Assembly: GCA_903930515.1 (NCBI GenBank)
Contig: CAIYYW010000281.1
Span: 1 to 15,059, forward strand
DNA from: an uncultured delta proteobacterium
Lineage (GTDB): Bacteria > RBG-13-61-14 > DRUE01
DNA length: 15,059 nucleotides
Reading direction: 5' to 3'
A program made the position numbers and the translations under genes. The notes under the pieces were generated by a model. The model saw only the letters and a program-made list of their open reading frames with translations. It was not told the DNA's origin and ran no database searches. This document shows positions 10,609 through 14,702 of the stretch, one piece after another (within the stretch, counting starts at the first letter, position 1; every line of letters begins with the position of its first letter).

Positions 10609-11142
10609 CTATCCTTTCAAGTTGATTTCTTTGCCGCATTTCGCGCGCCTCGCGCTTTTCAGTTCGCAGGTATCGCAAAGCTCCAAGCCCTCGCCCAGAA
10701 TCTCCTGACAATACGGGCAGCGGCCTTCCGCGCTCACCGGCTCCACATCAATCGTCTTGCGCTTCCCATCTCCGGTCTTGCCCCTCCAATCCTCAATCGC
10801 CATCTTGAGCGCGTCCAGGGCCTGGAACGGGCAATGCCATTTGCTCGGAGGCAGGGCCTTCAAATCCTCAAACAGGTCCTCCATCTTTATCTGTTCCACC
10901 TCCGCAACCGACTTGCCCTCGGCCAGTTCCGCGATATAGCTGGCGACCGCCTTGGCCGCTCCGCACCCCAGGCACTGGAACCGGACCTGGTCCAGGGTAT
11001 CGCCGTGAACCTTGATCTGGAAAGTCAGGATGTCTCCGCATTGCGCGTTGCCCACGATCCCGGTCCCGTCCGGGTCCGGGAGGTCTCCCCGCCGCTTCGG
11101 GCGCAGGAAATGCTCTTTCAATTTCTCCCGGCTAGCGTTCAT
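10609..11142 (-). CDS. IscU/NifU-N-type Fe-S scaffold fused to a zinc-ribbon-like tail
   Basis: Cytoplasmic scaffold on which Fe-S clusters are built from iron and sulfur supplied by a cysteine desulfurase. Of its 177 residues, about 10-122 form the IscU domain, with all ligand positions present: Cys35 and Asp37 in AQCGDILTF, Cys60 in CLGCGAAKA, and His103-Cys104 in [17 protein letters not shown]. The chaperone-binding motif LPPVK of E. coli IscU reads LPPSK. After a short charged linker, residues 141-170 carry CPYC, CDTC and a further Cys (KCGKEI), which looks like a zinc ribbon or rubredoxin-like knuckle not found in standard IscU. The gene overlaps the end of cysE by 11 bases, so the two are translationally coupled. 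It is a second scaffold in the same gene cluster as nifU, and the tail may set a different client or metal. Confidence 0.88.
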
Positions 11143-11857
11143 TGTTGGGGCCTTTGTTTTGAAAGGATTTGAGCGCCTGGTCGTAGTTTCGGATCAATTC
11201 CTTTTCCTTGATCCCGTGCTCCTGCTCCAGGCCCTGCAAGCGTTTCTCAAACTGCTCAAACAGTTTCAGCCAACTCGCGATCACATCCTGGAGAGGGTCG
11301 GGCAGATCCGAATGTTCCAGGTCCTTGTCCAGGTCGCCGGTGGTCTGCTTCTTGATCACCTTGCCGGGAATGCCCACCACGGTGGAGTTGGGCGGAACAT
11401 TTTCCACCACCACCGATCCGGACCCGATCCGGCTGTGCTCCCCGATCGTGATCGCGCCCAGGATGCAGGCATTGGACCCGACCACCACGCCCTTTTCCAG
11501 GGTGGGATGCCGCTTCTTCTTTTCCAGGTGCACCCCTCCTAAAACCACTCCCTTGTAAATCAGGCAATCGTCTCCCACTTCCGCGGTCTCTCCGATCACC
11601 ACTCCCATCCCGTGATCAATGAAGACCCTCTGTCCGATGGTTGCGCCGGGATGAATTTCAATCCCGGTGAAGAAGCGGTTGAAATGGGAAATCAGCCGGG
11701 AGAGGGTGTAGAAATTTTTCAAATATAGCCGGTGGGCGACCCGGTGGATCAGGAGCGCGTGCAAACCCGGATAAGCGAGCATAACCTCCACCCGGTTCCT
11801 GGCCGCGGGGTCGCGGTCAAATACCGCTTGAATATCTTCCCGGAACCGGTTGAACAT
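11132..11857 (-). CDS. cysE: Serine O-acetyltransferase
   Basis: Transfers acetyl from acetyl-CoA to L-serine, giving O-acetylserine, the first step of cysteine synthesis; cytoplasmic. The 241-residue protein has a short N-terminal helical domain (about 1-60), then the left-handed beta-helix of hexapeptide repeats (about 66-168) with [10 protein letters not shown], the catalytic His82 in [19 protein letters not shown], and [11 protein letters not shown] closing the helix. Residues about 172-241 form a charged helical extension ([20 protein letters not shown]) likely to be a coiled coil, longer than in the shorter EpsC/SRPB-type enzymes it otherwise resembles. The start is supported by GAGG 4 bases upstream. 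In an operon with nifS/nifU it would supply the cysteine that NifS uses as sulfur donor. The upstream region that should link it to nifS is now occupied by the repeat-bounded cassette. Confidence 0.94.
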
Positions 11858-11880: not shown

Positions 11881-11921
11881 GAAAATCTTTTTCACCGCAA
11901 AGGCGCAAAGAACGCAAAGAA
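11881..11921 (+). repeat. Left terminal inverted repeat (GCAAAG-type unit A)
   Basis: Pairs with 13464-13504 on the other strand with 4 mismatches in 41. The core contains three phased GCAAAG words (CCGCAAAG, GCGCAAAG, AACGCAAAG). Confidence 0.85.
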
Positions 11922-11937
11922 AATTAATATTGGTTTT

Positions 11938-11967
11938 TACCGCAAAGGCGCAAAGGACGCAAAGAAA
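11938..11967 (+). repeat. GCAAAG-type repeat unit B, direct copy of unit A
   Basis: Same orientation as unit A, 14 bases after it; shares ACCGCAAAGGCGCAAAG then GACGCAAAGAAA. The AT-rich spacer between A and B, read on the minus strand with the repeat, offers TTGCGC and TATTAA about 18 bases apart, a weak candidate promoter towards cysE. A partial GCGCAAAG also occurs at 11997-12004. Confidence 0.8.
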
Positions 11968-12026
11968 TAACTTGGGGCCTTGGAAAAACTTCCCTTGCGC
12001 AAAGCCATCAGAGGTCAACGGATTTT

Positions 12027-12413
12027 TCATTTTTCCTCCAACCCCAATACCAGCCGCTTTATGCCGTCCTTGATGCGCGGCGTGTTGAAATTGATCAACA
12101 TCCCGAGCTTCAAGCCGGTAAGTTTAAGATAAGTCAAAACCTGCGCTTCATAGACGGGCAACATTCTCTCCACGGCTTTGGCTTCCACCACAACCTTCCC
12201 TTCCACCACCAAATCCAACCGATAGCCGCAATCCAATTTGATCCCCTTGTATTCCACCGGCAAATCTTTCTGCCTTTCAAACGCCAGGCCTTGAAGATGC
12301 AATTCATGACACAAACATTCCTCGTAGGCTGATTCCAATAATCCAGGGCCCAGCGCCTTGTGCGCCTCAATCGCCGCACCAATAATTTTATTACTCAACT
12401 CGTTTTCATCCAT
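12027..12413 (-). CDS. GxxExxY protein, PD-(D/E)XK nuclease-like (PDDEXK_3)
   Basis: A 128-residue protein of the GxxExxY family (Pfam PDDEXK_3, TIGR04256). The naming motif is at 24-30 (GLLESAY, in KALGPGLLESAYEECL). Nuclease-like positions follow: Asp67 in YRLDLVVEGK, Glu77-x-Lys79 in VVVEAKAVE, and a Gln91-xxx-Tyr95 pair (AQVLTYLKLTG), the arrangement of RecB-like PD-(D/E)XK enzymes. It ends with the family-typical LKLGMLINFN. Length is normal and the frame intact. AGGGG lies 8 bases before the ATG. The gene sits between repeat unit B and the middle repeat unit, so it may be a sub-cassette of its own. Its cellular role is not established; whether it cuts DNA is unknown to me. Confidence 0.9.
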   Translation of the reverse strand: MDENELSNKIIGAAIEAHKALGPGLLESAYEECLCHELHLQGLAFERQKDLPVEYKGIKLDCGYRLDLVVEGKVVVEAKAVERMLPVYEAQVLTYLKLTGLKLGMLINFNTPRIKDGIKRLVLGLEEK

Positions 12414-12430
12414 TCCAAAATCCCCTATTT

Positions 12431-12447
12431 ACGCAAAGACGCAAAGA
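12431..12447 (+). repeat. Middle partial GCAAAG-type repeat
   Basis: ACGCAAAGACGCAAAGA matches the inner half of units A and B in the same orientation. It fills most of the 38-base gap between the two nuclease-like genes, as expected if the cassette were built by stacking two repeat-flanked modules. Confidence 0.7.
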
Positions 12448-12451
12448 TTTC

Positions 12452-13432
12452 TTATTTTTTCATTTCTTCTAATATATCTTTAATCATGTTCCTATATTCT
12501 TCTATGATTTTAAACCCTGTGTTTCCTGTCGCATCCTTTTTGTATTCCACGATTTGGCGCAAATAATCCCGGGGAGGGTATCCCCATTCCTTGATTATGG
12601 CTCCGAACAGGGATTCTAAACGACCTTGCTCGCCTTGTTTATCAAATTCTTCTATGATCTGCTCTTTGGCGACGAACTCATGTTTTAAGCATAATGGCAG
12701 CAGGATTTTTCTAATCCGGTTCGGAGTCGGCTTATCTTGAGATAAATAGTCAATCAATATTTTTATCAATTCTTCAGAATTATAATTCCCCGGCAGATTG
12801 GACATCTGCCAGCCCTTTCTCTGTTTATGCCTCACCTTTTCCTGCTCCTCCACCTCAGGAATAATCATAGTTCTAGCAATTAACTCGTCTCCTCCTTCGC
12901 TCTTTATATATCTCAGGACTAGATAATTGATAGCTAACTCGTATTCTTCAGAAAGCCATTCCACCATTCTTTGCAATGGCTCCTCTATAAAAAATCCAAC
13001 AAGTAAAATCCTCTGGGTTTGATTAAAGGAAATGTTTTCCAAATCTATATCTTTAAAATTTTCGCTAAGATATTCATCAAGCGGGAATTTGGTGTATGCC
13101 AGGCAAATTTCATTCAGTTTGTCAAAATCCCAGGAAGCTGCGTCGGAGGCATAATCTATTGCCTGCGCCAGAGCTTCTCTAGGAATTTTATCTCTTTTTA
13201 GTTCAATGATAACGGTGTTGCCGGATTTATCTATTCCAAACAAGTCTAAAGGACCCGATCTTGTTTGAACTTGCTCCCCAATTATCAGGATGTTTTCACC
13301 CAATATTTCTGGGTTAGCTTTTATCCAACTCTCGAGGTCTTTAGGTTCAGTTCTCCCGACTCCAGCCAAAGTGGTTTCCAATGATTCTAATTTCCCATTT
13401 TTTATTTGCCAAACTTTTATTTCAGTGCCCAT
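12452..13432 (-). CDS. NucS/DUF91-like PD-(D/E)XK nuclease-family protein
   Basis: A 326-residue protein with an N-terminal nuclease-like domain. After a short beta hairpin (KVWQIKNGKLESL), it shows Glu42 in ANPEILG, Asp63 in SGPLDLFGID, Glu77-x-Lys79 in VIIELKRDK, and Gln90-xxx-Tyr94 in ALAQAIDYASDA. This is the E...D...ExK...QxxxY order of RecB-like and NucS-like enzymes. The second half (about 150-326) is helical and charged and I do not recognise it; it may bind DNA or a partner. The gene is markedly AT-rich, and lacks a clear Shine-Dalgarno before its ATG, unlike the operon genes around it, which points to foreign origin. It lies between the middle and right repeats. A role in repair, element maintenance or defence is possible but not shown. 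Confidence 0.78.
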   Translation of the reverse strand: MGTEIKVWQIKNGKLESLETTLAGVGRTEPKDLESWIKANPEILGENILIIGEQVQTRSGPLDLFGIDKSGNTVIIELKRDKIPREALAQAIDYASDAASWDFDKLNEICLAYTKFPLDEYLSENFKDIDLENISFNQTQRILLVGFFIEEPLQRMVEWLSEEYELAINYLVLRYIKSEGGDELIARTMIIPEVEEQEKVRHKQRKGWQMSNLPGNYNSEELIKILIDYLSQDKPTPNRIRKILLPLCLKHEFVAKEQIIEEFDKQGEQGRLESLFGAIIKEWGYPPRDYLRQIVEYKKDATGNTGFKIIEEYRNMIKDILEEMKK

Positions 13433-13463
13433 TGTTATTGTCGTTTTTCAGAAACAGAAAGTA

Positions 13464-13504
13464 TTCTTTGCGTCCTTTGCGCCTTTGCGGTGAAGAATAT
13501 ATTC
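13464..13504 (-). repeat. Right terminal inverted repeat (GCAAAG-type)
   Basis: Reverse complement of the left end with 4 mismatches in 41. Its outer edge includes a perfect 10-base palindrome, GAATATATTC (13495-13504), 16 bases after the nifS stop codon on the minus strand. Confidence 0.85.
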
Positions 13505-13520
13505 ATTGAATTATTAGAGC

Positions 13521-14702
13521 TTACTTTCTCGCCCAGAGCGGACTCATCTCGCGCAGCTCCTGGATTACGCGGGGCACAACCTTAAGCGCGTAATCAATGT
13601 CTTCTTCATTATTCTCAATCCCCAGGCTGAAGCGGATGGTGCCGTGGGCGTGTTCGTGGGGAAGGCCGATGGCCAAAAGCACATGGCTCGGCTCCAGGCT
13701 TCCGCTCGCGCAGGCCGAACCAGTGCTGACCGCGATCCCTTCCAGGTTGAGCCGGAGCAAAATGGATTCGCCTTCTATGTATTTAAAGGTGACGCTCAGG
13801 GTGGTGGGGATGACTTTTTCCGGATCTCCGTTGATCATCACTTCCGGAACTTTTTCCAGAATGCCCATCCGCAGTTTCTCCCGCAGTTTCCAGATCTTGG
13901 CCACTTCCTGCTCGCGCCCCTGCATCGCCAGTTCGCAGGCCCTGCCCAGGGCGACGATCCCCAGGTTGTTCTCGGTGCCTCCGCGCAATCCCCGCTCCTG
14001 GTGTCCTCCCTGGAGGGTGGGGCATACGAACACCCCCTTGCGGATATAAAGCGCGGCCACCCCCTTGGGAGCGTAGAGCTTGTGGCCGGATAAGGAAAGG
14101 AAATCCACCCCCAGCTCCTTGACATCAATCTTCATCTTGCCCACGCCCTGGACCGCGTCGGTATGGAAATAGACCTCGCGCTCGCGCGCGATCCTGGCGA
14201 GCTCCGCGATCGGCTCAATGGTTCCGATCTCGTTGTTCGCGGTCATTACCGTGATCAGGACGGTCTGCTTGGTGATGGCCTTTTTCACCAGGTCCGGGTC
14301 CACCAGTCCAAAGGAATCCACCGGCAGCCAGGTGACCTTGAACCCCTGTCGCTCCAGGGTCCGGATCGGGATGATCACCGAGGGATGCTCAATCTGGCTG
14401 GTGATGATGTGCTTGCCCGGATGAGACCCGTTCGGCTTGCAATACACATCCTGGCAGGTCACCCCCTTGATCACCAGGTTGTTGGACTCGGAGCCGCAAC
14501 TGGTAAAAATAATCTCCTCGGGCAAGGCGTTGAGCAAGGCCGCAACCTTCTTCCGGGAGTCCTCAATCGCCTTCCGGGCCTCCTGTCCGTAGGAGTGGAT
14601 GCTGGAGGCGTTCCCGAACAAATCCAGCGATTCCGTGATCGCTTTTTTCACTTCCGGATGAAGCGGGGTGGTGGCGTTATTGTCCAGGTAAACCTTGCGC
14701 AT
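13521..14702 (-). CDS. nifS: Cysteine desulfurase, NifS/IscS type (group I)
   Basis: PLP enzyme that removes sulfur from cysteine as a persulfide and passes it to the scaffold. The 393-residue protein has all expected landmarks: YLDNNATTPLHPEV at the N-terminus, His106 in IEHPSV stacking on PLP, Asp182 in HTDAVQ, the PLP lysine Lys208 in SLSGHKLYAPKG, and the persulfide cysteine Cys331 in STGSACASGSLEPSHVL on the long flexible loop of group I enzymes. A small Cys-containing insertion lies at about 82-98. The start is supported by AAGGAG, 9 bases upstream inside the end of nifU, and the two genes are 6 bases apart, so they form the classical nifU-nifS pair (here in the order nifU then nifS). 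I use nifS because of the BFD-containing NifU partner; an iscS name would be equally defensible. Confidence 0.95.
   Translation of the reverse strand: MRKVYLDNNATTPLHPEVKKAITESLDLFGNASSIHSYGQEARKAIEDSRKKVAALLNALPEEIIFTSCGSESNNLVIKGVTCQDVYCKPNGSHPGKHIITSQIEHPSVIIPIRTLERQGFKVTWLPVDSFGLVDPDLVKKAITKQTVLITVMTANNEIGTIEPIAELARIAREREVYFHTDAVQGVGKMKIDVKELGVDFLSLSGHKLYAPKGVAALYIRKGVFVCPTLQGGHQERGLRGGTENNLGIVALGRACELAMQGREQEVAKIWKLREKLRMGILEKVPEVMINGDPEKVIPTTLSVTFKYIEGESILLRLNLEGIAVSTGSACASGSLEPSHVLLAIGLPHEHAHGTIRFSLGIENNEEDIDYALKVVPRVIQELREMSPLWARK

Follow-up and report, generated by a model that had tools for sequence, protein, structure and literature searches.

Between nifS and cysE of an uncultured delta proteobacterium lies a short segment that carries two putative nuclease genes and is closed at both ends by inverted repeats. 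What are these repeats, and which of the two genes, if either, acts on them? The original prediction was that both nucleases may recognise or cut the repeats, so that no classical transposase would be needed to move or maintain the cassette.

An inverted-repeat cassette between nifS and cysE

The window (the whole stretch of DNA analysed, 15,059 nt) is contig C281 of the source genome (G000), a 3.65 Mb draft, and three genomes stand for the phylum in this study. The segment between nifS and cysE is bounded by inverted copies of ACCGCAAAGGCGCAAAGRACGCAAAG, and has the following features:

11132..11857, minus strand: flanking gene cysE (serine acetyltransferase by sequence); the cassette genes are on the same strand
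11889..11922, plus strand: left-end array, copy 1, with TTTTCACC and then three CGCAAAG heptamers separated by gaps of 1 and 2 nt, reading inward
11934..11967, plus strand: left array, copy 2, a direct duplicate with 94% identity to copy 1
12027..12413, minus strand: gene of the GxxExxY protein, 128 aa (TIGR04256/PF13366)
12432..12446, plus strand: two-unit array fragment, located between the two cassette genes
12452..13432, minus strand: gene of a NucS_C-like PD-(D/E)XK protein, 326 aa, PADLOC PDC-S11 candidate, passenger
13464..13494, minus strand: right-end array, inverted, reading inward
13521..14702, minus strand: flanking gene nifS (cysteine desulfurase by sequence)

Most of what had been described at this locus was reproduced. 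The end arms at 11881-11921 and 13464-13504 are complementary at 37 of 41 positions (90% over 41 nt), with a conserved core at 11889-11922 and 13464-13494 and weaker outermost bases. The internal direct copies are a full copy (11934-11967) and a two-unit fragment (12432-12446). Both genes are intact, and the D..ExK..QxxxY motif can be read in both products. The reported drop in GC is likewise present: 0.387 in the second gene against 0.57-0.59 in the flanking genes (nifS 0.585; cysE 0.565), with 0.483 in the GxxExxY gene and 0.543 in the window. It is also true that no transposase lies inside the cassette, as the Pfam and NCBIfam matches of both genes are to nucleases only.

Comparison of orthologous nifS-cysE loci had been proposed as a means of defining the ends and any target duplication. 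In G002, a genome of the same order and the only one in this comparison (the contig of the same-genus G001 stops within nifS), the gap is ~120 nt long and cassette-free, which gives an empty site. The empty gap (L099:4900-5023) carries a different short-period repeat, GAATACGAAATACGGAATACTGAATACG.

GxxExxY is a predicted minimal PD-(D/E)XK nuclease

The GxxExxY protein scores 158.7 bits against TIGR04256 (cut-off 35) and 150 bits against PF13366 (PDDEXK_3; cut-off 22). Among 88 GxxExxY proteins, E27 and K79 are invariant, and D67, E77, Q91 and Y95 are each present in at least 90%. Purifying selection was seen in the few pairs for which it could be computed. A sequence search for a solved structure gave a chance-level match only. 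The predicted structure (pLDDT 95) has its best structural match in SSO0001 (4ic1; Z 9.5, rmsd 3.8 over 99 residues), which we take to be a Cas4 protein, the entry title giving only the name SSO0001. All other matches have Z below 8, a range that the tool flags for common arrangements, and the Cas4 family model itself scores 13 bits, below its cut-off of 22.7. The structural model suggests that GxxExxY is a minimal PD-(D/E)XK nuclease with intact catalytic residues. The original assignment of this protein to the PD-(D/E)XK superfamily, for which a structure prediction had been suggested as a check, is borne out by both the curated cut-offs and the Cas4-like predicted fold. The family is present in about one-fifth of a broad genome panel (79 of 386 genomes).

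Inward-facing heptamer arrays flank GxxExxY genes across phyla

The general unit is a GxxExxY (TIGR04256) gene with inward-facing arrays of about three CRCNRAK heptamers. The second GxxExxY gene of the source genome (contig C326), which adjoins purA, has arrays with a different letter, CACAGAG. With six GxxExxY proteins as queries, a search of genome contigs yielded 80 loci, the closest relatives of the repeat-associated queries, from Chloroflexota, Planctomycetes, Acidobacteria, Proteobacteria, Bacteroidetes, Cyanobacteria, Verrucomicrobia, an archaeon and others. CRCNRAG arrays lie within 300 nt of the gene at all 80 loci, and 67 of these have a plus-strand array on the left and a minus-strand array on the right. 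Array density falls from 7.8 per kb within 200 nt to 0.47 per kb beyond 1.5 kb. Variable letters agree between the two arms of a locus at a frequency of 0.78, compared with 0.50 ± 0.026 between loci.

Since the 80/80 result is partly due to the choice of close relatives, a broader sample of 67 loci was taken from the 386-genome panel. The AG unit alone gave arrays at 38 of the 67, and the remaining loci mostly had inverted repeats of related units, such as CGCAGATTA, CGCCGATGAA and CACGAATT (AT and AA types). With CRCNRAK (at most one mismatch), a unit widened after the data had been seen, arrays were found at 56 of the 67 loci and faced inward on both sides at 45 (0.000 in shuffles). Independent of this widening is a pattern-free test, in which flanking inverted repeats scoring at least 14 were found at 117 of 191 GxxExxY loci, compared with 1 in shuffled sequences and 9 with swapped flanks. 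About one-sixth of the broader loci are without any array, and one-third are without an inward pair. A chance origin of the arrays is ruled out by the reversed-pattern and shuffle controls.

The repeat letter follows the protein tree

When the AG or AT type of the unit is mapped onto the tree of GxxExxY proteins, only 3 changes are needed, compared with a mean of 24.4 (minimum 20) for shuffled labels and of 11.6 (minimum 6) for shuffling confined to copies of the same genome. Linkage alone would also give a repeat type that follows the gene. Synonymous sites are saturated between most GxxExxY pairs and the arrays are still recognisable, so something maintains them; from this saturation we argue that the arrays are under selection beyond plain linkage to the gene. 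Counts of AG arrays did not separate carriers of AG-type from carriers of AT-type genes under the incomplete sampling available, and one genome (G242) has 31 AG arrays and one AT-type GxxExxY gene.

Genomes rich in dispersed arrays nearly always carry GxxExxY

The pattern CCRCARAG-N-CRCARAG-NN-CRCARAG (at most one mismatch) has 35, 35 and 37 matches in the source genome, G001 and G002, and its reversed form has none; in G002, ten of the ten close neighbouring array pairs counted face inward. The 386-genome panel was searched with one fixed array spacing. At least ten arrays were found in 30 of the 79 genomes with GxxExxY and in 1 of the 307 without it (p = 3e-22), and at least 20 arrays in 22 and none, respectively. 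The sole array-rich genome that lacks the gene (G014) has 13 arrays, and its family-mate G162 has the gene and 33 arrays. Families with both gene states point in the same direction (9 vs 3; Wilcoxon p = 0.028). Many genomes with the gene have few or no dispersed arrays at the searched spacing.

The dispersed arrays are largely extragenic. Only 7 of 34 and 0 of 23 lie inside long ORFs, against backgrounds of 61% and 68%, and close pairs face inward (+-) in 60 cases and outward (-+) in 8. The complete genome G048 has one GxxExxY gene and 136 arrays. Most of these are single and extragenic, and two of them flank the gene. At the G048 loci L295 and L315-L344, long purine-rich tracts and heptanucleotide repeats such as GCAAGAG surround the arrays.

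A search for the end sequence in this and related genomes had been proposed, and repeats scattered without association with the cassette genes had been named as counter-evidence. Dispersed copies were indeed found, yet their distribution is strongly associated with GxxExxY, and not with the pair of nucleases.

Could another enzyme spread the arrays? Y1_Tnp is present in 28 of the 31 array-rich genomes, and among genomes with GxxExxY at least ten arrays occur in 28 of 58 with Y1 and in 2 of 21 without. These counts would fit a Y1 (IS200-like/RAYT) transposase, the most likely such enzyme, spreading the arrays in trans while GxxExxY is a passenger or a stabilising nuclease attached to the repeats; Y1-type movement would also fit the missing target duplication. 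We consider this explanation unlikely, because none of the 125 genomes with Y1 but without GxxExxY is array-rich, and array-richness is predicted far better by GxxExxY (odds ratio 187) than by Y1 (odds ratio 12). Moreover, none of the Y1 genes listed for G048 is found within 3 kb of a listed array, and the units of a single array are repeated directly and do not make up a hairpin palindrome. Y1 as the sole mover is thus unsupported. Since Y1 carriers are richer in arrays within the genomes that have GxxExxY, Y1 may have a helper role.

Cassettes end at their arrays at unrelated chromosomal sites

Comparison of homologous cassettes at unrelated sites (L217/L218/L276 and L148/L163/L160) shows an identity of 85-100% inside, with 88-100% in the last 26 nt at each end, whereas identity just outside drops to 15-42%. 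There is no target duplication: an excess of matching outer k-mers was not found at 54 loci. A tandem pair in G142 has the ends TGTCCCACGCAGATT and AATCTGCGTGGGACA. This genome has 9 GxxExxY matches, several within ~40 kb (L368, G142:C1:786477-827837), where cassettes are tandem and clustered; two of the clustered cassettes are ~95% identical and lie head to tail.

Most array-bounded cassettes have GxxExxY as their only gene. The family is essentially chromosomal: none of 50,697 phage records contains it, and it was found in 6 of 72,556 plasmid records and in 1 viral contig. Where the neighbours are co-directional, GxxExxY has their orientation in 39 cases and the opposite one in 4 (p = 3e-8). 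This bias suggests that the gene relies on the host operon for its expression, probably through read-through.

By eye, the carA-carB gap holds cassettes in three Alphaproteobacteria (L141, L171, L193) and the trpE-trpG gap in three Betaproteobacteria (L136, L143, L164). These cassettes are not all mutual nearest relatives, which would fit either long-standing inheritance or recurrent use of one spot. One GxxExxY match (L100, G001 contig C728, 14441-16241) lies near genes read by eye as cas2 and cas1, possibly in the position of cas4.

The co-orientation with surrounding operons also bears on a different explanation, in which the arrays serve in cis as control or protection sites (for autoregulation, for insulation, or as marks that GxxExxY avoids or reads), functionally kept beside the gene and dispersed by ordinary recombination. 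Array conservation that exceeds synonymous saturation and the resemblance of GxxExxY to Cas4 are both consistent with such a role. It is nevertheless improbable, for homologous cassettes that end at their arrays are found at unrelated sites, and the array load of G048 is excessive for the control sites of one gene.

The second protein is an occasional passenger

The second protein has a weak match to NucS_C, above the cut-off (27.4 vs 24 bits), and scores 48.7 bits against the NucS equivalog (cut-off 216), so that only the model of the C-terminal nuclease domain is passed. It also matches the PADLOC phage-defence candidate PDC-S11 (E 1.5e-42). Relatives occur in 16 of the 386 genomes, and those outside the source genome have no arrays of the cassette's kind nearby.

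The original prediction was that both nucleases may recognise the repeats and move the cassette. In its favour, two array-bounded cassettes hold GxxExxY with a PDC-S11 protein: the one in the window, and one in G002 (contig C75; L103:4044-5808), where the pair lies between inward arrays and a GxxExxY-only cassette follows soon after. In addition, all three PDC-S11 relatives of the source genome lie near arrays. Joint action is nonetheless very improbable, given that GxxExxY stands alone in most cassettes and that no such arrays accompany the second protein's relatives outside the source genome; we reject a two-nuclease system. Another segment of the source genome (L084, contig C199, 413-2355) has a PIN-domain gene and the phage-defence candidate PDC-M32A between inward arrays, without GxxExxY. 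Together with the PDC-S11 cases, it suggests that cassettes sometimes carry defence candidates, and the second protein is an occasional passenger of this kind.

Discussion

We take the autonomous unit to be a small GxxExxY gene of predicted Cas4 fold between two inward-facing arrays, each of about three CRCNRAK heptamers. The occurrence of arrays beside the gene across phyla, the agreement of repeat type with the protein tree, the gene-tied dispersal and the ends that coincide with arrays all support the idea that repeats and nuclease form one unit. With a probability of roughly 60%, we propose that this is a repeat-plus-nuclease system that works like REP/RAYT with different parts, and in which GxxExxY would act on the arrays. 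Of the original idea that repeats and nucleases spread or are maintained as one unit without a classical transposase, the part concerning GxxExxY is supported by these correlations; the part concerning the second nuclease is not supported.

How could such a unit spread? We infer that GxxExxY may recognise the arrays and cut or nick at them, and that repair or copying of the broken ends would put arrays at new extragenic sites. New copies would be single arrays or short inverted pairs, at times accompanied by the gene itself or by a captured neighbour, for example a defence gene. Both the action of the enzyme on the arrays and the manner of copying are suggested here by comparative evidence.

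REP/REPIN-RAYT systems consist of short extragenic high-copy repeats, inverted pairs among them, with a repeat-flanked, usually low-copy chromosomal gene, and enzyme and repeat have co-diversified (PMC3116915, PMC8266576). The GxxExxY arrays are similarly dispersed, extragenic, high in copy and tied to the presence of the gene. However, RAYT is a Y1 HUH transposase and the array-flanked GxxExxY a PD-(D/E)XK protein, and a REP is a palindrome that is recognised as a hairpin and has a conserved motif, for instance GTAG, whereas the arrays are triplets of direct heptamers with gaps of 1-2 nt. As enzyme and repeat both differ, the GxxExxY system is not a member of REP/RAYT.

Terminal inverted repeats around a gene, discrete ends at unrelated sites and gene-free inverted pairs are features that the cassettes share with insertion sequences and MITEs. 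The GxxExxY cassette differs from them in that it encodes no recombinase of the DDE, HUH, serine or tyrosine type and shows no target duplication, and in that both of its ends are arrays of direct heptamers. With Cas4 and other RecB-family PD-(D/E)XK proteins, GxxExxY has in common the predicted fold and the D..ExK..QxxxY motif, but it is only 128 aa long, falls under the Cas4 family cut-off and is not tied to CRISPR loci.

In the literature searched, which left most subscription journals and preprints outside, GxxExxY is mentioned in passing in two papers; neither a function nor an association with repeats was found, and the array words are absent from the relevant papers. Within that scope, the sequence evidence looks like a self-spreading repeat system that is seemingly undescribed. 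We see about an even chance that it represents a new class of mobile repeat, in which a minimal Cas4-like PD-(D/E)XK nuclease recognises trimeric heptamer arrays and spreads them chromosomally without a transposase, the repeat letter having changed along with the protein and defence genes being carried occasionally.

Mobile elements are classed by the chemistry of their transposases. If our proposal is true, an element with a PD-(D/E)XK nuclease as its only gene would be an additional class. It would also give the uncharacterised GxxExxY family a function and account for a dispersed repeat of many phyla. The agreement between repeat type and protein lineage makes the recognition code directly testable, and the Cas4-like fold of GxxExxY may bear on the origin of Cas4 action at repeat boundaries.
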